A DNA stretch of 64,000 nt from Levilactobacillus zymae DSM 19395 (GTDB taxonomy: Bacteria > Bacillota > Bacilli > Lactobacillales > Lactobacillaceae): positions 66,679 through 130,678 of the forward strand of contig NZ_AZDW01000050.1 in NCBI RefSeq assembly GCF_001434115.1. The letters are read 5' to 3'. Positions 1 to 11,793 of the stretch are shown in pieces. The translations under genes were made by a program, and so were the position numbers. Each line of letters begins with the position of its first letter. Position 1 is the first letter of the stretch. The notes below the pieces were generated by a model. That model had not been told where the DNA came from and made no database searches. It was given only the letters and a program-made list of their open reading frames with translations.

Positions 1-1
1 T

Positions 2-165
2 GAATCGGCAGATACGTCAATGAGTGTCGCCAGTCAGGAAGCTTCCGAATCTGCGGACGCCTCAATGAGTGTTGCGAGTCAGGAAGCTTCTGAATCAGCG
101 GACACTTCCATGAGTGTTGCGAGTCAGGAGGCTTCTGAATCGGCCGACACCTCCATGAGTTTAGC
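2..165 (+). repeat. 45-bp tandem coding repeats of the adhesin
   Basis: Near-identical 45-base units (for example starting at 20, 65 and 110) encode the 15-residue unit with the core MSVASQEASESAD. A diverged unit follows at about 155. The array continues past the left edge, so the copy number is unknown. Such arrays are the O-glycosylated stalk of serine-rich repeat adhesins. Confidence 0.9.
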
Positions 166-1441
166 TAGTCAGAGTGCTTCTGCTAGTGAAGCAAGTCAGA
201 ATACGCAAACCGGTGGCACCGGTGATAACGGGAATTCGTCCACTGGGACGTCAACCGGGACCACTACGACTACCACGACGCCAACCACCAGTCCTTCCGA
301 TGTCGTTTCGAATGGTAACGGTGGCCTGCAAACGGGTGAAGCGGGTGCAACGGTTAAGAAGACCAGCACCAAGATCAAGAGTGTTTCGGCTATCAAGAAG
401 ATTGGCCTGTACAAGTCACCAACCTTCTCCACCAAGGGTCGGATCACCTGGTACGCTAAGGAACCACGGACCAAGCAACCACAATTTGTTGTGATTGGTG
501 AAGCCCGGTCCAAGAATGGCACGTTACGGTACAAGGTTCGCGACGTTAACCATGGGTCTAAGACTTATGGGTTGGTTGGGTACATTACCGCCAACAAGAA
601 GTACGTCCGGAACACGTACTACCAGACGTTGACCACAGCAACCAAGAAGAAGACCAAGACGATTACGATCATCAATCCGAAGGGCGTGAATGCTTACAAG
701 ACGGCTTCACGGTCCGGTAAGGTGGCCCATTACCGTCAAGGTCAACAACTGAAGGTTAAGCGCATCGTGCACTACCACCTGACGACGCGGATCGAATTGA
801 CCAACGGCCGGTACATCACGGCTAACCGTCAATGGGTCAAGACCGGGAAGGTAACGTTGAAGCACACCAGTACTCAACGGCACATCAAGTCGGTCAAGCA
901 CGTTCAGGTCAGAGTAGCCGTTAAGGGCCGGTACACGCCAGTCGTTCACCGGTTGTCGCCAAGTCTGAGTTACTTGTCAGTAAGTCGGCAAACGTTGCGG
1001 CCACAAAATGGGCCAGCGGTTATCGCTCAGATCATGAGTCGGCCGGTAACACCAACGGCTCTGCGGACGGGTTACGTTCAGTTGTACAGCGTGCCCGTAC
1101 AAAAGATGGGGCTGTACACGACGCCAAACTTCTCAGCAAAGACGCGGATTACTTGGTACGAGAATTTGCCACAGGCTCAGCAGCCAGTGTTCCTAATTCT
1201 GGGAACGGCCGTCTCAGCTAATGGGACGTTGCGGTTCAAGGTGCTCGACATTAATCCGGCATCCCCAACGTACGGTCAGGAAGGGTACATCACCGCTGAC
1301 CAGAAGTACATGCGGATTATTCCAAGTGCTAGCACCCAACTAATAACTTACCGGATTCCGGCAAGAACGTTGGCTAGTCTAGGCTGGATGTACGACAGCA
1401 ACCAAGTTCTTCGGTACGTGGTCACACCGGTTGACCGGTAA
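2..1441 (+). CDS. Serine-rich repeat surface adhesin, C-terminal part (5' end outside window)
   Basis: The reading frame is open from the first complete codon at base 2, so this is the 3' part of a longer gene. It begins with 15-residue Ser/Ala/Glu repeats (SMSVASQEASESADT type), then a Thr/Ser/Gly-rich linker (about bases 200-340). A strongly basic C-terminal region follows with DUF5776-like modules at about 389-622, 656-847 and 1091-1315 (GLYKSPTF, RITWYAKEPR, YKVRDVN, GYITANKKYV signatures). Serine-rich repeat proteins are glycosylated in the cytoplasm and exported by SecA2/SecY2, whose genes converge on this one. There is no LPXTG motif or terminal hydrophobic tail, so non-covalent wall binding through the basic modules is inferred. 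A hairpin terminator follows. The repeat/SecA2 linkage is firm; the ligand is unknown. Confidence 0.85.
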   Translation, partial: ESADTSMSVASQEASESADASMSVASQEASESADTSMSVASQEASESADTSMSLASQSASASEASQNTQTGGTGDNGNSSTGTSTGTTTTTTTPTTSPSDVVSNGNGGLQTGEAGATVKKTSTKIKSVSAIKKIGLYKSPTFSTKGRITWYAKEPRTKQPQFVVIGEARSKNGTLRYKVRDVNHGSKTYGLVGYITANKKYVRNTYYQTLTTATKKKTKTITIINPKGVNAYKTASRSGKVAHYRQGQQLKVKRIVHYHLTTRIELTNGRYITANRQWVKTGKVTLKHTSTQRHIKSVKHVQVRVAVKGRYTPVVHRLSPSLSYLSVSRQTLRPQNGPAVIAQIMSRPVTPTALRTGYVQLYSVPVQKMGLYTTPNFSAKTRITWYENLPQAQQPVFLILGTAVSANGTLRFKVLDINPASPTYGQEGYITADQKYMRIIPSASTQLITYRIPARTLASLGWMYDSNQVLRYVVTPVDR

Positions 1442-1710: not shown

Positions 1711-2577
1711 TTAAGCTTCGTCTGGAATAATTTGAGCCTTATCTAGTTTGATGTTGCGTAAAGCCAGCGCGTTGTACGCGGCCTGCGTCATCTGAACTTC
1801 TTGGATGTAGGTAATATCGTTGTTGAGAATTCCCAATAAGTTCCCTCGAACTTCGCCTTGTTCGTCAATCGGGTCTTCGGAGAGGCGCAGAATATTGTGG
1901 GATTTGGCGTAGCGTAGCGCCATCATTTCCATCCCCATGTAGCAGACGATGACTTGATCTTGGACCGTCAAGAGCTTAGCGACCTGCCGGCAAATGAACT
2001 CGTTTAGGTTATCGTAGTGCTCCAGGACCTCCTGGGTCTCGGGGTTTTCGATGGTAATGTAGTTCAGCACGTCTTCGTAGTAATAATACCGAATGACCGG
2101 TTGTCCCTTCAGGTTTAAAAAGTCGAATTCCTGGGGATGCCCTTCGTCGTAGAAGAGTTGGGTGTATTGCCGACCGTCCGTGGCGTATTCTTCGATGAGG
2201 TCGTTACTGCCATCCGGGTTGAAGTAGTCGATTTCCTTTACGGCCCGGTTGGTGTTGGGGTACAGCTTCAATTGACCAATGGGGGCACCATCGTATTCCA
2301 ACGCACAGAAACCGTCGGCGTTCATCAGGATATTCGTCCCTGTCGGCACCGGGGCGCGGTTGAAGAAAAGGTAATCGTCCGGATTGTAAGTGGTCCGCTT
2401 GGTGATGAAGTCGTAAAGGTTCACGCTGTGCTTGATGCCTTGTTGGCGCATGGTCCCGGCAAAGTTTGGCGCGGAGCCAATCGACAATAGGTGCAGTTTA
2501 TCCGTTTCAAGCACCCGTTTTTCCTGTTTCCAGATTTCAAAATTGGTATGAACACCATTAACTAATTCATAGCGCAT
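1711..2577 (-). CDS. gtfB: GtfB-like chaperone of the adhesin O-GlcNAc transferase, short form
   Basis: This is 288 residues. The stretch NLYDFITKR...LFFNRAPVP followed by acidic/aromatic beta-rich sequence resembles the N-terminal half of GtfB, the substrate-binding partner of GtfA in accessory Sec systems. From memory, streptococcal GtfB is about 440 residues. This protein stops shortly after an IIPD segment that in the full-length family precedes a second Rossmann-like half, so about 150 residues seem to be missing. The stop is followed at once by a terminator and no remnant is visible downstream. The start overlaps the gtfA stop by 11 bases and has a GGAGGAAG ribosome site. Whether it still works as GtfA's chaperone is open. 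Confidence 0.7.
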   Translation of the reverse strand: MRYELVNGVHTNFEIWKQEKRVLETDKLHLLSIGSAPNFAGTMRQQGIKHSVNLYDFITKRTTYNPDDYLFFNRAPVPTGTNILMNADGFCALEYDGAPIGQLKLYPNTNRAVKEIDYFNPDGSNDLIEEYATDGRQYTQLFYDEGHPQEFDFLNLKGQPVIRYYYYEDVLNYITIENPETQEVLEHYDNLNEFICRQVAKLLTVQDQVIVCYMGMEMMALRYAKSHNILRLSEDPIDEQGEVRGNLLGILNNDITYIQEVQMTQAAYNALALRNIKLDKAQIIPDEA

Positions 2578-4015
2578 CGACTAACTTCCTCCAATCTTCT
2601 GCAATCACGTGGTCCTGGTACCGTTGAACCAACTTGACGGTGTTGGCGCGCAACTGACCGTAATCCGCGGCCATCAACCGTTGGAGAGCTTGGTACAGTT
2701 GGTCAACACTGTAATCGGCGTCTTCGCGGTTGAAATCGGCTAAGAAGCCGTTTTGACCATCCGTCACGAGTTCCTGAGCCCCGAAACGAGCGTTGAACGT
2801 CACGATAGGGAGTCCGGCGTTGAGTGCTTCGATGTAGGTCAGGCCGAAACCTTCGGAATAGGACCCGGAGAGGTAGGCATCGTACTTAGGATATTCTTGA
2901 TCCAGGTTCGCCGACTGGCCCTTAAGGGTGATGTAGTCGCTGGCGTGACCGTCTTCGATGGCCTGCTTGATTCGCTTCTGTTCTTCTCCGGCCCCGAAGA
3001 TGTCGAGGGTCAGGTTAACGCCGTCTTCATCGTGTAATTTAACGACGGCCTTGACGATGAAGTCCACGTGCTTTTCAACGGCTAACCGGGAAGCGGTAAC
3101 GAATTTGATGGGATCACCCGGCCGCTTGTTGAGGTCGATGGTGGGGTTGTCCCGCACACCCCCGACAGGGATGGTGACGATTTGGTCGTCGTGACCCGGG
3201 AAATCGATCAGCATGTCCTGCCGTTGCCGTTCGGTGGCGACGATGACCTTGTCGACCTGGTCCATGTGGGTCAGGAGATACTCGTTGTAGTTGTTAAAGA
3301 GTGGGTAACGGGGGTCCTTCCGGTTGTTCAACTGGTCGGCGTGAATCACGTCGATCACCTTGGTGGTTGTGGAATGCATGTTGAAGAGGGCCACCTCGGG
3401 GTCGATACCCCGGTCGATCATGTAGATGTTCTTTTCGTTATAGGCCAGGTTCAACCGTTCGAAGAAGTAACGAATCAATTGCATCCCGTTTGAGAAGAAA
3501 AGGTGTTCGCCACCGGCTTGGTGGTATAAGTGAATGTTACGGATGATGACCTTCCGGTGCTGATCATCATAAAACTGGAAGTCAGCCATTTTAAGACCGG
3601 TATTCATATTAAAGAGTTCCACGTGGTTGGAACCAACTAGTAGGATATTGGTCTTCTTATGCTTGTCCGGGTGCTTGACCATGTGATCGACGACGTGCAG
3701 ACCGCTGGTCGTGTAGGTGTCACGCTTACGGTGGGTGTTGGTCGAATCAATCACCAGTTTGGTGTCTTGGGGGTAAAAGGTCTGGACGCCGTGCTTTAGG
3801 TAGTCCTCACCCAAAACGAAGTACTCCCACATGTTGATGACTTGGTCGTTCGCCAGGCCCCAGCGCTTCATGGGTGCTTGGAGGTCCCGGTTCAAGCGAT
3901 AAAAGAGATAGCGGAAAGGTAGGCCGGCTTGGGTCAGGACCTTTCCTCGGTAGAATTCGGCGTGTTCGACCCCGGAATTGCCCATCCCGATGGTTCCGTT
4001 AACAAAAAATATCAT
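2567..4015 (-). CDS. gtfA: Accessory Sec glycosyltransferase GtfA
   Basis: This 482-residue GT-B fold glycosyltransferase has the usual GtfA length. The N-terminus MIFFVNGTIGMGNSGVEHA and the C-terminal EX7E motif (SEGFGLTYIE, Glu388 and Glu396) are characteristic. GtfA transfers the first GlcNAc from UDP-GlcNAc to Ser/Thr of the serine-rich repeat protein in the cytoplasm, working with GtfB. The ATG overlaps the asp3 stop (ATGA), and gtfB overlaps its 3' end, which indicates translational coupling. Its target is presumably the adhesin at the left edge. Confidence 0.9.
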   Translation of the reverse strand: MIFFVNGTIGMGNSGVEHAEFYRGKVLTQAGLPFRYLFYRLNRDLQAPMKRWGLANDQVINMWEYFVLGEDYLKHGVQTFYPQDTKLVIDSTNTHRKRDTYTTSGLHVVDHMVKHPDKHKKTNILLVGSNHVELFNMNTGLKMADFQFYDDQHRKVIIRNIHLYHQAGGEHLFFSNGMQLIRYFFERLNLAYNEKNIYMIDRGIDPEVALFNMHSTTTKVIDVIHADQLNNRKDPRYPLFNNYNEYLLTHMDQVDKVIVATERQRQDMLIDFPGHDDQIVTIPVGGVRDNPTIDLNKRPGDPIKFVTASRLAVEKHVDFIVKAVVKLHDEDGVNLTLDIFGAGEEQKRIKQAIEDGHASDYITLKGQSANLDQEYPKYDAYLSGSYSEGFGLTYIEALNAGLPIVTFNARFGAQELVTDGQNGFLADFNREDADYSVDQLYQALQRLMAADYGQLRANTVKLVQRYQDHVIAEDWRKLVDAL

Positions 4016-4764
4016 TTTGGTTCCTCCCGAAGCATAAGTGTTTGCCAGTGCGCCAGCTTGGCTTGCCAGGCGGCCAGTCCCGAGTCTTCCCGGGACGTGG
4101 CGGGGTAGTTGGCCAAGAAGGTCATTAGCTCTTGGTTGATTTTATCGATCCAGTGGATGTTGCCCAACTGGTAGGGGGTGACATAGACCACTAAATTATC
4201 CCGGTTGGGCATTAGTAGCAGGGGCTTGGTCGCCCCCTGACGGACCACTAACGCGACGTGGGGTTGGGTGGCCCCCTTAGCCGTCGCGGTGACGCTCCCA
4301 GCGAATGAATCGACGGTGAATTGATAGGCCGCTTCCGTGGCGGCATCCATCAGCAGGAGATTGTGGAAGATGACCTGTTCGTGATGGGTGTTGACCAGTT
4401 CAATCGCGTAATCGATTGCCTCCGGGGGCATGGTAAAGTGGCCCTCGGTCCCGTCGAGAATCGTGTTACCGATGGTGTGGCCGTCCTCGTCCAGAAATTG
4501 GATACGCAGGTAGACCCCGCCGCCGGTGACGCTGATATGGCCGTGCAGAAAGTAGGTCGTATCCGGCCGAATCACCGGTAAATCGTTGGTCAGATGTTGG
4601 GCGGCAAAGTTCCGCTTGGAGCGCCACTGGTGAATCACCTCGCCGGGTGGCATTAACGGTGCCCGGTAGGTGACCACGCGCTCAGGCGAGACCGTGACCT
4701 GACAACCGTATTCGTAGGTATTGCGCAGGTGGGTCGGCCAGAGCAGTAAGTAAGCGAGACTCAT
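4012..4764 (-). CDS. asp3: Accessory Sec system protein Asp3
   Basis: This 250-residue protein between asp2 and gtfA overlaps both neighbours by an ATGA. It has a beta-rich, carbohydrate-binding-like sequence (TYFLHGHISVTGGGVYLRIQFLDEDG) as in the Asp3 family. In streptococci Asp1, Asp2 and Asp3 form a complex required for export of the glycosylated adhesin through SecA2/SecY2. The assignment rests on position in the conserved gene order and recognisable sequence. The first ~25 residues are hydrophobic-aromatic but are not a convincing signal peptide, so a cytoplasmic location is inferred. Confidence 0.8.
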   Translation of the reverse strand: MSLAYLLLWPTHLRNTYEYGCQVTVSPERVVTYRAPLMPPGEVIHQWRSKRNFAAQHLTNDLPVIRPDTTYFLHGHISVTGGGVYLRIQFLDEDGHTIGNTILDGTEGHFTMPPEAIDYAIELVNTHHEQVIFHNLLLMDAATEAAYQFTVDSFAGSVTATAKGATQPHVALVVRQGATKPLLLMPNRDNLVVYVTPYQLGNIHWIDKINQELMTFLANYPATSREDSGLAAWQAKLAHWQTLMLREEPK

Positions 4765-6344
4765 GAAGACACCTCCTCAGTGACGAACTTGCGGTCGAAT
4801 TCGGACGCCAGAATCATCTGGTATTGCTTGAAGAACCAGGCGTTCACGGCCGGCGTATCGTCGTTGTGCCGTCCCAGAATTCCCTTATGGAGGAAACGCA
4901 TGTGGGGGAAGTGGGTGGTGGTCCACTCGAACAGCTGGTCAAAGGACGTATTGTCGAAGTCGTCCTGGTACATGTGCGCGATGGCGAAGGTGGTGTGGCT
5001 GAAGTCAGCCTGCCGGATTTTCTCCCAGACGCGGTCGTTTAGCTGCTGGGCGGTGGCTGGTGTGTCGTCACCGGTGTGGTAGAGCAGAAAGTCGAACGAC
5101 GGTTGGAAGTCCTGGGTCCGCTTGATGCGCCCGTTGGTGGCGGTGGTCCCCAGGTTGATGAGGGGTTTACCGGCCACGATGGCTCGGGGACTTAGCTGGG
5201 CACCGTAGTACAGGCACGCGGTGGTTCCTTCGGAGATCCCCGAAAGAATCAGGTCGTCGGGGGCGAACCCCAGTTGCTTGAGCGTCGAATCGATGATCTG
5301 ACGCATACCGGTCTCAAACTCGGGGGATCCCAGGTAGAAGCCACCCCCGTTGAGCCGCGGGTCGCTGACCAGTAGGAAGGGTGCCCCCAGCCGTTCCATC
5401 ATGAAGTTTCCTTCAAAGTGGTCGGCCATGTTGAACCCACTGAAGTAGACGTTCAGGGGTGGTTTCATATCGCCAGCGTCGAAATAATAGTAAAAGTTGT
5501 CGTTAAAACTTTCCGGCGCGTGAAACAGGTGACCGCCCGGGAAAAGTTTGCCGAAATCTTCCCGGGAACGAGCGATGTGGACCAGGCCGATGTCGAGGTC
5601 GCCCTGCCCCTTTGCCAGAACGCTCAGGGTGTAGTAGAAGTCGGTGTCCCCTAAGTGCAGAGTCTTTCCCTCCGGATAGTCCGTTGGGTCGAAAACGATG
5701 GTGTGCAGGGGCTGGGGCGATTGCTGATTGATCAGGGTCAACTGGTAACGGACAGAAACGTCAGCCGAAGTCGCGCATTCGGCTTGAAAAGTCAGGTCGC
5801 GGTTACGCCCGGCGTATCCCTGAGTCTCCCAGATGGCGACGGGTTGAAAATCAAGGCCGAAGTTACCGGACAGATGCATCCGGTAACGGCCGTATCGTTT
5901 CAGTTGACCGTCAAAGCTGGAAAGAATCCGAAGACTTCCGTGGTCGAGCTTAAAGGCGTCTTGGCCGGGGAACCAGTCCCGGTTGATGGTGGTGGTCAGT
6001 TCCGTAGCGTCCGTCATGTCGATGGGAAAGGCCCCCTTGAGCGCGAACAGCTTTTGGGTGTCGGCGTCGAGGTCGACTTGGCGGTCATAGAGAATGTGAT
6101 TGGCTGGTAAGGCGGCCAGGGTGGCGTAGTCGTTCCAGGTCGGGTCGTCAGTCGGCAACAGGAACAGGGCGTTGCGCCATTCCGGCGTGATGGCCCCGGT
6201 CTGGGTCAGCGCCAGTTGGGGCGCTTGATCGTCTTGCTGGTGGTCCGGATGGTAGACCCACTGATAGACGTCATCGAGCGTGTTGGGGTCGATGACCGGC
6301 CGACCGCCGAGTTGCACGACCGGCATTTTACGCATGTTCGCCAT
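4761..6344 (-). CDS. asp2: Accessory Sec system protein Asp2 (acetyltransferase/hydrolase-like)
   Basis: This is 527 residues, the usual Asp2 size. An alpha/beta-hydrolase-like C-terminal half carries the nucleophile elbow GISEGTT with Ser371. A late His (GRHNDDTPAVNAWF, about residue 496) is a plausible triad member. In Streptococcus gordonii, Asp2 acetylates GlcNAc on the adhesin and is needed for export. The ATG at 6344 has an AAAGGGG ribosome site 9 bases upstream, and the gene overlaps the end of asp1 by 17 bases. Retention of the Ser suggests that an acetylation step is kept here (inference). Confidence 0.85.
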   Translation of the reverse strand: MANMRKMPVVQLGGRPVIDPNTLDDVYQWVYHPDHQQDDQAPQLALTQTGAITPEWRNALFLLPTDDPTWNDYATLAALPANHILYDRQVDLDADTQKLFALKGAFPIDMTDATELTTTINRDWFPGQDAFKLDHGSLRILSSFDGQLKRYGRYRMHLSGNFGLDFQPVAIWETQGYAGRNRDLTFQAECATSADVSVRYQLTLINQQSPQPLHTIVFDPTDYPEGKTLHLGDTDFYYTLSVLAKGQGDLDIGLVHIARSREDFGKLFPGGHLFHAPESFNDNFYYYFDAGDMKPPLNVYFSGFNMADHFEGNFMMERLGAPFLLVSDPRLNGGGFYLGSPEFETGMRQIIDSTLKQLGFAPDDLILSGISEGTTACLYYGAQLSPRAIVAGKPLINLGTTATNGRIKRTQDFQPSFDFLLYHTGDDTPATAQQLNDRVWEKIRQADFSHTTFAIAHMYQDDFDNTSFDQLFEWTTTHFPHMRFLHKGILGRHNDDTPAVNAWFFKQYQMILASEFDRKFVTEEVSS

Positions 6345-7869
6345 GGGTGATCACCCCTTTCCAATAAGCCAAAAGTTTCGGTTCCGCGAGGTTTTCGAGG
6401 TAGTTGATGCTCTTGACCAGGCTTTCGTTCCAGTGAATCAGGGTCGCCAGGTAGAAGTCGAGGGCGGCCGGTAGATCGGTTAAATGACTGACGATGAGGC
6501 CGTTCTCGTGGTCCGCAACGTACCCGGTCGCGACCCGGTTGATCTGGGGAATCCCGGCACTGATGGCCGCAATTTGGAGCTGTAAGTTGGGAATCTCGCC
6601 CAAGTCGATCAGCAGGCGGGCCCCACCAAGAATCTCCTGCCGATCGCTCTCAACCAAACGGTGACGCACGTGAATCCGCTGCAGATTATTGAGCGTGGTT
6701 TGAATGACCGCGGGAAGCTGATCGATTTGCGTCAGGGATTGGTGGTTCGCCAATTGAATCAAGAGGCTTTGGAGCAAGAGATACTCGGGCGAGCCCTCCG
6801 CAATGCCAGTGGCGGCGATGATGTGCTGCTGGAATTGTTGCGTGAGTCGGTCGGCGGAAACTTTGGAGGTGGCAATCACGGTGACAGCGTGGCGTTCGTC
6901 CTTGACCAACCAATCGGTCAGTTGTTGGGTCACAATCGCCTGCTCATAGATGGGCTGGTAATTGACGGCCCAGACGATAGTGGTTTCCGGTAATTCGGTA
7001 CTGTTTCCCAGGGACAACGTGGTGGCGTAGGGCGAGACCACGTCGACAGGCACGTCCAAATTGGCGTTGACCTGGCGGAATTTTTTAGCCATTTGTTGCG
7101 TCGGGGCGATGACCCGTTCTAGTGCGGCGAAGAGGTTGTCGGGCAATGTCGGGGCGACCCGGGTGGCCAGGAGATAGGCGACCCGGTGTTTCTGGGCGAT
7201 GGCCGTCAAGATGGAAGCAGTGACCGGGTCAGCGGCACTGATGATCAAGTCGTCGCGGTCCGCCAGATGAGCCTGGACCCGTTCAATGATTAGCTCTTCT
7301 AGCGACGCATAGGTCCGGGTGACCCGCCCATCGGCCGCGAGGAGGTCGACGTGATTGTCGGTGGTTCGGCGCATGACCGGCTGAGTGGCGGGGTTGAACC
7401 AGAGGGTCTCCAGGCGAGTATTGCGGTGATCGTAGGTCGTTTGCGTGGAGCAGAAGCCCCGGTCGTCATAGGTCCGAATGATTCGGGTCCGGTCGGGGTT
7501 GGTCAGGGTGACCTGGCTAACGAAACCGGCCGCGTGGAAGGTGACCTCACCTTGGATACGTTGATTGCGCACCAGCAGAACTTTGTCGGCCAGATAGACG
7601 AACTGGGTGCCCCGCGGTAAGTCGAGATCTTCGAGTCCCAGGGGTAACCCCTCAGCTTGATGGACCTGTTGCAGGTCGTCGAAGACGTTCCACCAGGGCA
7701 ACGTGGTCAGATGATTGGCCTGCAACTGGTAGCGGAGCCAGGGCAGGGGTTGGAGTAAGAGCAGTTCGGTGCCCAATTGGTTGTGCATGAACAGCTGGGC
7801 TAACTTCACGATGGGATTATCGGTCAGTCGTAGCGCACTGCGGGACCATGCTGGAATAATGACGGTCAT
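6328..7869 (-). CDS. asp1: Accessory Sec system protein Asp1
   Basis: This 513-residue protein has the Asp1 opening MTVIIPAWSRSALRL and a GT-B-like layout. In the family this fold has lost catalytic residues and acts as a carbohydrate-binding scaffold of the Asp1-Asp2-Asp3 complex. The start ATG has a strong AAGGAGG site. It lies 12 bases downstream of secY2 and overlaps asp2. The order secY2-asp1-asp2-asp3-gtfA-gtfB is the canonical SecA2/SecY2 island order, which supports the call beyond sequence alone. Confidence 0.85.
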   Translation of the reverse strand: MTVIIPAWSRSALRLTDNPIVKLAQLFMHNQLGTELLLLQPLPWLRYQLQANHLTTLPWWNVFDDLQQVHQAEGLPLGLEDLDLPRGTQFVYLADKVLLVRNQRIQGEVTFHAAGFVSQVTLTNPDRTRIIRTYDDRGFCSTQTTYDHRNTRLETLWFNPATQPVMRRTTDNHVDLLAADGRVTRTYASLEELIIERVQAHLADRDDLIISAADPVTASILTAIAQKHRVAYLLATRVAPTLPDNLFAALERVIAPTQQMAKKFRQVNANLDVPVDVVSPYATTLSLGNSTELPETTIVWAVNYQPIYEQAIVTQQLTDWLVKDERHAVTVIATSKVSADRLTQQFQQHIIAATGIAEGSPEYLLLQSLLIQLANHQSLTQIDQLPAVIQTTLNNLQRIHVRHRLVESDRQEILGGARLLIDLGEIPNLQLQIAAISAGIPQINRVATGYVADHENGLIVSHLTDLPAALDFYLATLIHWNESLVKSINYLENLAEPKLLAYWKGVITHGEHA

Positions 7870-7881
7870 TGGGACACCTCC

Positions 7882-9117
7882 TTAGTCAAAAATCTGATAC
7901 CGGTTTTTCGTAATCAGGCCGTGAATCTGGTCGGCGACCCCGATCGTCATCCCCGCCAAAATCATCAAGGACCCTAAGTATAGGGAGTAGTTCGCGGCGA
8001 CGGGCCAGAAAAGTCCCACCAATAGGGGACCGACCCCGATGATCAGGGTGATGATACTGGAAATAAAGGTCAGCCGGTTGAAGTGTTGCATGATGGCGGC
8101 TTCCGTGGCGTCACCGGGATAGGTGCCTAGCAGGTAGTCATCACTTTCCTTGAGCGACTTGGCCTGGCGGGTCGGTTGTAGGTTGATGTAGCCGAACGCG
8201 TAGTTCAGAAGTAACAGAACGATGGTGTACATCAGCACCCCCTGAGGCGTCCGGTAGGAAAACCAGGTGGTAATGAAATGCTGTGCGGGGGTCGTCGGAC
8301 CGACCGTCTGGTTGACGAAATACCGCGGTAGCATGAACAGCGAACTGGAGAACATGAACGGCATCCCCGCCGAGGTCAGAACTTTGATGGGCAGGTAGGA
8401 ATTCGAGTGTTCCCGGTCGAGCATCGGTCGTTCGATGGGTAGCCGAAGTTCGGCGGCGTTGGTGATGACACTAAATAGAAGGAAGATGGCCCCGACGACG
8501 ATAGCGACGGTCAGGGTGGTGGCGTTGATCTTGAGGGTCACGGTCTCGGCGTCCCCGAACCCGTGGATCAGGTTGTTGGGGATGCCCCGAACGATACCGG
8601 GGATGATCAGCGCGACACTACTCCCAATCCCAATGGCGGCGTTCATGTTGGCCAGCCAGGCCACGAACAGCGCCCCGGCAATCAGAATCAGCATGGTGCC
8701 GACGAAGGTGATGTCGATATCGGTCCCGGCCAGGTAAAACGTTTGCAATGAGCCGCGGGTCAGATAGACCAGCTGAAAGGACTGGGCGATGGCCAGCAAC
8801 AGCGTGATGCCGTACTTACCGAAGCTGACCTGGCGGGGACTCAGGTTACTGATGGCCTCATCGCCAATCGCCTGGACGGCCTGCCAGATGATCATGGCAC
8901 TCATGAAGGGCCCCATCCCGACCGAGAAGAGCGTTTGGTTGGAGAAGTCACTCCCGGTCACCTTGCCGAAGAGTCGCAAAAAAGTCACGTGTTTAAGGGC
9001 GGCCTCGGCAGTCGTTAGATCCACGTTCGGGAGGGGAATCGTTTGGCCAGTGACGAAGACCGCTAAAATCAGGGCGGTCCAGCCCAGGCTGGTTAGAAAT
9101 TCACGATAACGATGCAC
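7882..9117 (-). CDS. secY2: Accessory Sec translocase channel SecY2
   Basis: This 411-residue polytopic membrane protein has about ten hydrophobic spans. It carries SecY-family features: an N-terminal MHRYREFLTSLGWTALILAVFVTGQTIP-type first span (start of the family motif only), a plug-like segment, ELRLPIERP and GMPFMFSSSLFMLPRYF. SecY2 forms the dedicated channel for the glycosylated serine-rich protein with SecA2. The start is GTG, 6 bases after AAAGGTGA. It lies 14 bases after secA2. It is shorter than housekeeping SecY, as expected for SecY2. Confidence 0.9.
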   Translation of the reverse strand: MHRYREFLTSLGWTALILAVFVTGQTIPLPNVDLTTAEAALKHVTFLRLFGKVTGSDFSNQTLFSVGMGPFMSAMIIWQAVQAIGDEAISNLSPRQVSFGKYGITLLLAIAQSFQLVYLTRGSLQTFYLAGTDIDITFVGTMLILIAGALFVAWLANMNAAIGIGSSVALIIPGIVRGIPNNLIHGFGDAETVTLKINATTLTVAIVVGAIFLLFSVITNAAELRLPIERPMLDREHSNSYLPIKVLTSAGMPFMFSSSLFMLPRYFVNQTVGPTTPAQHFITTWFSYRTPQGVLMYTIVLLLLNYAFGYINLQPTRQAKSLKESDDYLLGTYPGDATEAAIMQHFNRLTFISSIITLIIGVGPLLVGLFWPVAANYSLYLGSLMILAGMTIGVADQIHGLITKNRYQIFD

Positions 9118-9131
9118 AACAAATCACCTTT

Positions 9132-11534
9132 CTAAGGATAGGTCACATCAATGCTCCCGTCCGCTTTAAATTGAAATTCCGATAAGAGGAGATTTTTGAC
9201 GGCCTGGTGGGCAAAGGATTGTTTCATCTCGGCAAAGGCCTTGCGACCGTCCTTCAAGTATTCCAACAGGGGGTCGTGTTGGGCCGTACTCCGGCTGGTG
9301 GCAATTTGACGCAACTGTTGGAGCATGTCGACCTGGTCGATCCAGGCGTTGTCGAGCGACTTCAAAAGGCACATCCGCTCGAAGTATACCTGTTGGTCTT
9401 GGTTAATATTTTCGAATTTTTTCTGGAGTTGGTCAACCATTAGTTTCTGTAAAAATGGGACCGTTTGTTTTGGCCGGTCGGGTTGCCAATCGTGGTCGAT
9501 CACGTTGGCGACGACCAGGTGGTTATCGATGGTGTTCAACACGTAGTCGGCCATGTCGCTACGGGTCGGTTGGGGATGCTGCTGCATGAACGACCGGGCG
9601 GCCATTTTAAAGATGCTGGCCAGCTGGTCGTCGAGGGTCGGCACCGTCATGATCTGTTGGCGCGTGGCGTAAATGGTGTCTCGCTGGACCCGCATGATTT
9701 CGGCGTACTGGAGGGTCTGCGTCCGCGATTGTCGGTCGCTCTTTTCGGCGTTGTGCTGCGCTTGCGTGATGAGGTGATGGAACCGGTGCTTACCCCAGAA
9801 GGGCATTCGAATGCGGGGATTCCCCGCGCCCGGATGATCGCGCTTGTAGGCGGCTGCTCGGCGGCGGTACCGCCGCAGCCAGTTAGGCCCGTGTTCCAAC
9901 AGAATCGAGTCCTCGATGGAGACCAGAAAGACGGCCTCGCCGGGGGCCCCTTGGCGGCCACTACGGCCCCGCAGCTGGTTGTCGACCCGCGCACTGTTCA
10001 TCCGCTCGGTCCCGATGACCAGCAGACCACCCAATTCCTTGACGCCCTTTCCCAGCTTGATGTCGGTTCCCCGACCAGCCATGGAGGTGGCGACGGTCAC
10101 GGCACCGAGTTGTCCGGCTTCCTTGACGATGAGGGCTTCCTTGGCGGCACTCCGTGCGTTTAGGAGGTTATGCGGAATCTCTTCACGCAGTAAGATCCGG
10201 GAGAAGAGGTTCGACAGGGAAACGGATCCGGTTTCGATTAGCACCGGACGTCCCTGATGATACGCTTGTTTGACCAGGTCCACGGCGTGCTCGAGTTTTT
10301 CCGACGTCGAATTGTAGAGCCGGTCGGGCAGGTCGATCCGCTGGGAGGGTTTGTTGGTCGGGATGGAGATGACTGACAGACGGTAGGTTTCCTGAAGCTC
10401 AGCTGCGTCGGTCATGGCCGTCCCGGTCATCCCACTCAGGTGACTGAACATGCGGAAGAGGTTCTGGAAAGTGATCGACGCCATGGTCCGGGTCTGGTTG
10501 CTGACCGGAACGGCTTCTTTGGCCTCCAGGGCCTGATGCAGACCGGCTTCCAGCTTCATGCCGGCCAGCTTCCGACCGTTGGAGAGGTCCAATAACGACA
10601 CGCCATCTTCATCGACCACGTAATCGCGATCGCGGGTCAGCGTCTGGTGGGCTTTGAGGGCCAAAACCAGGTGCCGGTAAAGGGTCCGGTGGTGTTCGCC
10701 CAAGAGGTTTTCGAGCCCCAGGTACTCTTCCATGTGGTCGATTCCGCGGGGAGTGAACCAGACCTTTTTGTGGTCGTTGCTGCGTTCGAAGTCGATGTCT
10801 TCACGCAACAGGCAGATGACCTGGTCGGCGATTTCAAAGAGGTTGGACCGCACCCGCGGCGCCCCGGATATGACCAAGGGCATTTGGGCCGAGTCGAGGA
10901 GGACGGCGTCAATCTCGTCGAGAAGGGCAAAGTGGAACCCTTGCAAGAAGCGTTCGTCGGCACTTCCCGAGAGGTTGTCCATCAGGTAATCGAAGCCCAG
11001 GGTGGAGTTGGTGGTGTAGACGATGTCGGCCTGGTAGATCTTATGTAGGTTCCGGTCGTGCGGGTCTTCGCCGGTCGCGGGAACCCCCGCCACGGCGGTC
11101 AGGCCCAACCAACGGTAGACTTTCCCCATTTCCTGGGCGTCCCGGTAGGCCAGATATTCGTTGGCGGTGACCAGAAAGTTACCACTCCCGGTTAGGCCGT
11201 TAAGGTACATTGGCAGGGTGGCCGTCAGCGTCTTCCCTTCCCCGGTCTGCATCTCGGCGACGTTGCCGTCTTGCATGACCAAGGCCCCCAGAACCTGGAC
11301 GTCGAAGGGAAACATCCCTAGGACCCGTCGATCGGCTTCCCGGGCGACCGCAAAGGCCTGGATTTTCAGTGAATCCAGGGATTTACCGGCAGCGAGCTGC
11401 TCGCGGAAGAGTTCAGTTTGTGATTTTAACTCCTTATCGGACATGTCCCGATACTTGGAAGCTAAGGCGGCTACGGCGCGCATTTGGCGGACGTATCTCT
11501 CAGGAGTGCGGTGATGTGTGAACGGCATCCTCAT
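9132..11534 (-). CDS. secA2: Accessory Sec ATPase SecA2
   Basis: This DEAD-type preprotein translocase ATPase is about 800 residues from ATG 11534. Seen motifs: Walker A MQTGEGKT (about residues 96-103), LLDEIDAVLLDSA, SGMTGTA, VATSMAGRGTDI and QLRGRSGRQG. The C-terminal zinc-binding SEC-C tail of housekeeping SecA is absent, as usual for SecA2. An upstream in-frame TTG (11561) exists, but AAGGAAAG lies just before the clustered ATGs at 11537, 11534 and 11528. It heads the minus-strand operon. A palindromic TATAATTATA at 11590-11599 could serve divergent promoters. Confidence 0.92.
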   Translation of the reverse strand: MRMPFTHHRTPERYVRQMRAVAALASKYRDMSDKELKSQTELFREQLAAGKSLDSLKIQAFAVAREADRRVLGMFPFDVQVLGALVMQDGNVAEMQTGEGKTLTATLPMYLNGLTGSGNFLVTANEYLAYRDAQEMGKVYRWLGLTAVAGVPATGEDPHDRNLHKIYQADIVYTTNSTLGFDYLMDNLSGSADERFLQGFHFALLDEIDAVLLDSAQMPLVISGAPRVRSNLFEIADQVICLLREDIDFERSNDHKKVWFTPRGIDHMEEYLGLENLLGEHHRTLYRHLVLALKAHQTLTRDRDYVVDEDGVSLLDLSNGRKLAGMKLEAGLHQALEAKEAVPVSNQTRTMASITFQNLFRMFSHLSGMTGTAMTDAAELQETYRLSVISIPTNKPSQRIDLPDRLYNSTSEKLEHAVDLVKQAYHQGRPVLIETGSVSLSNLFSRILLREEIPHNLLNARSAAKEALIVKEAGQLGAVTVATSMAGRGTDIKLGKGVKELGGLLVIGTERMNSARVDNQLRGRSGRQGAPGEAVFLVSIEDSILLEHGPNWLRRYRRRAAAYKRDHPGAGNPRIRMPFWGKHRFHHLITQAQHNAEKSDRQSRTQTLQYAEIMRVQRDTIYATRQQIMTVPTLDDQLASIFKMAARSFMQQHPQPTRSDMADYVLNTIDNHLVVANVIDHDWQPDRPKQTVPFLQKLMVDQLQKKFENINQDQQVYFERMCLLKSLDNAWIDQVDMLQQLRQIATSRSTAQHDPLLEYLKDGRKAFAEMKQSFAHQAVKNLLLSEFQFKADGSIDVTYP

Positions 11535-11565
11535 CATTTCTTTCCTTAAAAGTTGACCCAATTCA

Positions 11566-11595
11566 TTGCTTTCAATTCTGTTTGATGGTTATAAT
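11566..11595 (+). promoter_or_regulatory. Promoter of the small membrane protein (TTGCTT-18-TATAAT)
   Basis: The -35 TTGCTT at 11566-11571 and -10 TATAAT at 11590-11595 are separated by 18 bases. The expected +1 falls at or very near the ATG at 11602, implying a leaderless mRNA. TATAATTATA is palindromic, so a minus-strand -10 for secA2 overlaps it, although a good minus-strand -35 is not seen. Confidence 0.6.
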
Positions 11596-11601
11596 TATAG
11601 C

Positions 11602-11793
11602 ATGACCAGTAAAACAAATAAGGAAATGTTGAAAAGCGACATCTCCTCAAGAATGAAGCAGGAAGAGCACTACGTCAAGGTTCCGCCGGCCGAGAAGAAG
11701 TCGTCCGGGAAGACCTTGAACATCGTAATTTCGGTGGCCATTGCCATTATCGTGTTAGCGGGGATCTTGTACCCGTTGGTAAATCTGTTTTAG
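11602..11793 (+). CDS. Small single-span membrane protein divergent from secA2 (Asp4/SecE-like candidate)
   Basis: This is 63 residues: a charged N-terminal half (KTNKEMLKSDISSRMKQEE...PPAEKKSSGK) and one C-terminal membrane span (LNIVISVAIAIIVLAGILY). No ribosome site precedes the ATG, and the promoter -10 ends six bases before it, so leaderless translation is likely. In streptococcal accessory Sec islands the small proteins Asp4 and Asp5 resemble SecE/SecG; a charged tail plus one C-terminal span next to secA2 fits that role. I do not recognise a family from sequence, so the function is inferred from position, size and topology. Upstream in-frame codons to 11566 overlap the promoter and are unlikely to be translated. 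Confidence 0.6.
   Translation: MTSKTNKEMLKSDISSRMKQEEHYVKVPPAEKKSSGKTLNIVISVAIAIIVLAGILYPLVNLF

Follow-up and report, generated by a model that had tools for sequence, protein, structure and literature searches.

In Streptococcus gordonii, SecY2, Asp4 and Asp5 co-purify and stimulate the ATPase activity of SecA2, and an Asp4 pull-down recovers SecY2 together with Asp5, without SecA2 or Asp1-3; loss of asp4 reduces adhesion partly and does not abolish it (PMC5076819). Papers on the lactobacillar accessory Sec systems, in L. reuteri and the L. casei group, deal with Asp1-3 only (PMC6973325, PMC6291802, PMC5566788). A full-text literature search for Asp4, Asp5 and SecA2 jointly with lactobacilli returned one streptococcal review, and in the literature found Asp4 is treated as a streptococcal extra. 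Here we describe a small open reading frame beside secA2 in a Levilactobacillus. Its product belongs to the known Asp4 family, which has gone unrecognised in lactobacilli, and what is new is the arrangement of the gene and its predicted leaderless start. We consider it likely, taking the explanation as a whole, that this gene is the asp4 of a SecA2-SecY2 island, that its product acts as a SecE-like partner of SecY2 and that it is translated from a leaderless mRNA.

The host locus, contained in the 64,000-nucleotide stretch of DNA that we analysed (the window), is an accessory Sec (SecA2-SecY2) adhesin-export island. Running leftwards on the minus strand, it comprises secA2, encoding the accessory motor ATPase (9132..11534; TIGR03714, 980 bits, over cut-off), secY2, encoding the accessory channel and proposed direct partner of Asp4 (7882..9117; TIGR02920, 247.5 bits against a cut-off of 249.6, and PF00344), asp1 (6328..7869; TIGR03713), asp2 (4761..6344; TIGR03712) and asp3 (4012..4764; TIGR03711), all three over cut-off, and genes for a gtfA-like glycosyltransferase (2567..4015; TIGR02918, E=7e-72) and a gtfB-like glycosylation chaperone (1711..2577; TIGR02919, E=3e-8), both below cut-off. 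The closest named relative is Levilactobacillus spicheri DSM 15429 (Asp2 93% and SecA2 96% identical). A candidate substrate lies at the left edge of the window, where positions 1..1441 on the plus strand encode the C-terminal end of a giant serine-rich adhesin with DUF5776 and a signal match, in a frame that continues to the left; the start of the gene, marked by a KxYKxGKxW signal at G000:C3:38702, lies beyond the window edge. From this signal to the window end the adhesin gene (L271) would measure about 29 kb if it is a single frame, its length being uncertain owing to N gaps. The genome encodes seven KxYKxGKxW proteins over cut-off and therefore offers plenty of candidate substrates.

The gene of interest, asp4, occupies 11602..11793 on the plus strand and is present in a single copy in the 2.7-Mb genome. 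The original prediction, made from the DNA letters, had described a 63-residue protein with a charged cytoplasmic part and one C-terminal span, encoded divergently 67 bases from secA2, and each of these points was borne out. The coordinates and strand are exact, and the distance from the asp4 ATG to the secA2 start on the opposite strand is 67 bp, with the secA2 ATG at 11534 (an in-frame alternative ATG at 11537 is possible). The product (MTSKTNKEMLKSDISSRMKQEEHYVKVPPAEKKSSGKTLNIVISVAIAIIVLAGILYPLVNLF, translated from 11602-11793) carries nine K/R and five D/E residues ahead of a hydrophobic span (residues 41-59; Kyte-Doolittle 2.75), and the residues behind the span are uncharged; this pattern predicts an N-in/C-out orientation with a cytoplasmic N-terminus. 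The AlphaFold2 model (mean pLDDT 80) consists of a helix at residues 3-24, a linker and a membrane helix at 34-62. The hydrophobic moment of the N-terminal helix gave p=0.14-0.48, so that its amphipathicity is not significant. A Foldseek search of the model against the PDB returned no match, as expected for two helices, the Asp4 profile gave generic membrane-helix matches only against PDB sequences, and a plasmid search with the 63-residue protein found no match.

A length of about 60 residues, a charged N-terminus predicted to be cytosolic, one C-terminal span and a DI..R motif are all features shared with Asp4 of the S. gordonii type (PF16996), which is likewise encoded in an accessory Sec island. 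The original prediction had proposed a search against Asp4, SecE and DUF families; in our Pfam search the top match was Asp4 (E=4.5e-6), nearly full length, at 27.2 bits, 0.5 bits short of the curated cut-off of 27.7. Nearly all lactobacillar orthologs fall under this cut-off, and 10 of 25 family members match Asp4 individually. Since the Pfam model passes in only 1 of 201 Lactobacillaceae genomes, curated annotation would normally miss Asp4 there. The profiles detect each other in both directions: a search of the retrieved islands with the lactobacillar HMM picks up streptococcal asp4 in the canonical position after gtfB, mostly with E values of 1e-8 to 1e-12, and hhalign of the divergent lactobacillar set against streptococcal Asp4 gave 98% (E 1.8e-14). 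Identity to the streptococcal rows is about 19-26% (alignment A3). Orthology with streptococcal Asp4 is thus well supported by sequence comparison. The two differ in arrangement, since streptococcal asp4 follows gtfA and gtfB whereas the gene in the window is divergent upstream of secA2, is predicted to be leaderless and has no Asp5 companion.

The same prediction had named SecE alongside Asp4, and this part stands as an analogy, since homology to SecE was undetectable by sequence. Asp4 resembles SecE (PF00584) in having a cytosolic helix and one span and in its proposed equivalent position at the channel, but it is without the V.WP motif and gives no profile match. At E<=1 the SecE profile matched only the housekeeping SecE in the genome, and hhalign of Asp4 against SecE (21 lactobacillar sequences, at least one of them, L287, a mis-extracted row) gave 2-7%, with a score not above the maximum of segment-preserving permutations. 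With profile search, hhalign and permutation controls all lacking a signal, SecE homology of Asp4 was rejected. By orthology with S. gordonii Asp4, we infer that the protein would sit N-in/C-out in the membrane with its cytosolic helix and one span, pack against SecY2 as SecE packs against SecY and stabilise the channel through which SecA2 would drive the glycosylated serine-rich adhesin. The layout of the AlphaFold2 model agrees with such SecE-like packing but cannot prove it.

The undetectable SecE homology would also suit a membrane anchor or adaptor that docks SecA2 and the Asp1-3 complex at the membrane, rather than a SecE-like clamp on SecY2. With its high charge, the cytosolic helix could make contact with soluble partners, and in divergent islands asp4 adjoins secA2, not secY2. 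In one locus (L105, G049:C1:1114000-1130000), asp4 and its leaderless promoter are retained next to a secA2 that is altered at its C-terminal end, and no secY2 was found in the 16 kb retrieved; the locus may be a remnant, or it may speak against SecY2 coupling. Against a docking role stand the S. gordonii pull-down, in which SecY2 and Asp5 were recovered without SecA2 or Asp1-3 (PMC5076819), and the arrangement in L. acidifarinae (L223-L225, G204:C4:18000-75000). There, the asp4/secY2 pair and secA2 lie on either side of a roughly 26-kb adhesin gene; secA2-asp1-asp2-asp3-gtfA-gtfB stays together, secY2 lies on the far side of the adhesin gene, and asp4 is intact and divergent from secY2, with its close promoter kept together with TATAATTATAGCATTATG. 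Loss of asp4 and secY2 in this species was ruled out, both being present elsewhere on the contig. In this one case asp4 is therefore separable from secA2 yet kept beside secY2, and we regard the adaptor role as rather unlikely next to the SecE-like clamp.

Asp5 (PF17000), the SecG-like partner with two spans in the streptococcal complex, had no match anywhere in the genome of the window at E<=1, and the island contains no small open reading frame with two spans. The statement in the original prediction that the island otherwise lacks genes of the Asp4/Asp5 kind therefore holds. In other divergent islands, Asp5-like two-span frames were rejected as apparent chance frames over repeats or antisense frames. 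Since Asp5 is missing from both genome and island, the lactobacillar core may consist of SecY2 and Asp4 only, or the housekeeping SecG may be recruited to it; the translocon that we propose would have two core subunits, SecY2 and Asp4, without Asp5.

Upstream of asp4, a −35-like TTGCTT (11566..11571, plus strand) and a −10 TATAAT (11590..11595, plus strand) are separated by an 18-bp spacer. The −10 ends 6 nt before the ATG, with no Shine-Dalgarno between, exactly as first noted from the letters of this locus. Counting as a signature a hexamer that matches TATAAT at 5 or 6 positions, we found that all of the 21 non-redundant divergent asp4 genes have such a −10 ending 6-9 nt before the ATG, and that a Shine-Dalgarno (a match of at least 4 bases) is present in one of them, where it lies upstream of the −10. 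For asp4 in other positions these figures are 0/39 for the promoter signature and 36/39 for the Shine-Dalgarno, and the background frequency of the signature, at first ATGs of other genes in the retrieved loci and the window, is 7/577. Four Levilactobacillus genomes share the block ggttataattatagcatga without a single change, amid flanking sequence that varies. Because the promoter abuts the ATG, the mRNA is expected to begin no further than about 0-3 nt from it, and leaderless translation is predicted. In a quickly computed SecA2 tree, all divergent islands fall in one clade (support 97), which includes Levilactobacillus, Secundilactobacillus, Paucilactobacillus, Lacticaseibacillus, Fructilactobacillus and Weissella; islands with a codirectional asp4 or a Shine-Dalgarno are nested within this clade. 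The leaderless start, as predicted from the promoter position, is a clade-wide feature rather than a local oddity, and the divergent leaderless asp4 is most simply read as having arisen once and been retained.

Were asp4 instead transcribed from a promoter further upstream, its mRNA would be leadered and translated without a Shine-Dalgarno. The intergenic DNA is AT-rich, the transcription start of asp4 is a prediction, and a published survey reported leaderless genes in Lactococcus-Streptococcus and Oenococcus-Leuconostoc, with no such signal in Enterococcus or Lactobacillus genomes (PMC3160421). Retention of the −35/−10 at 6-9 nt in 21/21 divergent orthologs, in surroundings that vary, argues against a distant promoter, as does the one divergent pair (L077 and L078) in which a strong Shine-Dalgarno occurs with no close promoter. 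We therefore hold a leadered transcript to be improbable and retain the leaderless start as the preferred reading. The two loci of this pair come from two congeneric species (L077, near 11345-11400; L078, near 11370-11420); their Shine-Dalgarno reads AAAGGAGG and the start codon of their asp4 is apparently ATT.

The −10 also forms part of a perfect palindrome, TATAATTATA (11590..11599), whose other strand reads TATAAT towards secA2 at 11599-11594, so that secA2 and asp4 could possibly share a single bidirectional −10. The decamer occurs in 7 of the 22 divergent islands listed. A bolder proposal, which is speculative and which on present evidence we would not favour, is that the lactobacillar accessory translocon is a minimal pair, SecY2-Asp4, without SecG or Asp5, and that in one clade the mRNA of Asp4 is obligately leaderless; the supply of Asp4 would then be controlled apart from the SecA2-SecY2-Asp1-3 operon and could provide a translational switch for adhesin export. 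A clade-wide leaderless gene in the Lactobacillaceae, if the prediction holds, would also be a clean natural system for leaderless translation.

Conservation beside secA2 and linkage to the island were examined across 201 Lactobacillaceae genomes. Most in-island orthologs score 40-86 bits with the lactobacillar profile in whole-genome scans, and matches above about 30 bits are found exclusively inside accessory Sec islands; those outside reach no more than about 30 bits, and several of these fall on DUF4044 genes. The open reading frame lies beside secA2 in many lactobacilli, and orthologs occur across many genera. In the retrieved islands they are about 56-70 residues long with the same design, and the gene takes one of three placements: divergent from secA2, immediately ahead of secA2 in the same direction, or after gtfB as in streptococci. 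A tally made by hand from the whole-genome asp4-profile, Asp2 and SecA2 scans showed that, of 45 genomes with both Asp2 and SecA2, 38 have asp4 within the island, and that none of the 15 genomes having Asp2 and no SecA2 (defined as Asp2 with one SecA only) does; the comparison is descriptive and uncorrected for relatedness among species, and Fisher p-values are not to be taken as probabilities for independent samples. The tally leaves out one SecA2-less genome, the sixteenth, that is 65% complete, and one genome with a truncated contig. Some islands, for example that of Lacticaseibacillus nasuensis, had no asp4 by these profiles. Neither of the outcomes that would have told against the original prediction, an open reading frame found away from SecA2 islands in many genomes or a match to an unrelated family, was encountered. 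Should Asp4 prove to go with SecY2 throughout Lactobacillaceae and Enterococcus, a core channel subunit has been missed by standard annotation, and the need of SecY2 for its own SecE-like partner becomes testable in non-pathogenic lactobacilli.

This island linkage largely refutes the idea that the gene encodes a generic small single-span protein related to DUF4044 (PF13253), a family encoded near mraZ, and lies by secA2 by chance. DUF4044 proteins occur throughout the Lactobacillaceae and resemble Asp4 in being small, lysine-rich and single-span with weak profile similarity: long DUF4044 proteins give weak matches to the Asp4 profile (23-28 bits) and hhalign gave 97%. However, the sequences used in that hhalign comparison had been selected by the Asp4 profile itself, and canonical DUF4044 is borderline, at 22.1 against a permutation maximum of 21.6. 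Unlike Asp4, DUF4044 proteins are mostly 35-50 residues long and have no link to SecA2, and the genome of the window encodes a separate DUF4044 gene elsewhere (C33). With most in-island orthologs at 40-86 bits and none above about 30 bits elsewhere, we consider a chance neighbour of this kind very improbable, and retain Asp4 as the identity of the protein. The long DUF4044 proteins near mraZ (L264-L269, L273) are closer to the Asp4 profile than SecE is.

The window open reading frame is a real protein gene under purifying selection, with pairwise dN/dS of 0.09-0.18 among Levilactobacillus asp4 orthologs where dS is unsaturated, and 0.10 between the window and L. spicheri. That so short a frame, devoid of a Shine-Dalgarno, might be spurious and lie in intergenic DNA is refuted by this selection on the frame (dN/dS 0.10-0.18), by the fixed context in which orthologs recur from genus to genus in many genera, and by RefSeq, which annotates the E. 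raffinosus ortholog and an open reading frame in the corresponding position on an L. lactis plasmid, each as 'hypothetical protein', and its probability is negligible.

Two further arrangements were observed among the loci surveyed. Lapidilactobacillus wuchangensis (G110; L086 and L044) carries secA2-secY2-gtfA-gtfB and asp4 on one contig and asp1-asp2-asp3 on another. About 15 genomes have Asp2 without SecA2, and five loci (L100-L103 and L107, in G054, G039, G006, G041 and G007) have gtfA and asp1-asp2-asp3-like genes and no secA2, secY2 or asp4. Such loci possibly represent a glycosylation/acetylation unit without a translocase of its own, and in two of them (L101 and L102) the genes form a compact gtfA-gtfB-asp1-asp2-asp3 cluster between apparent pta and serC.
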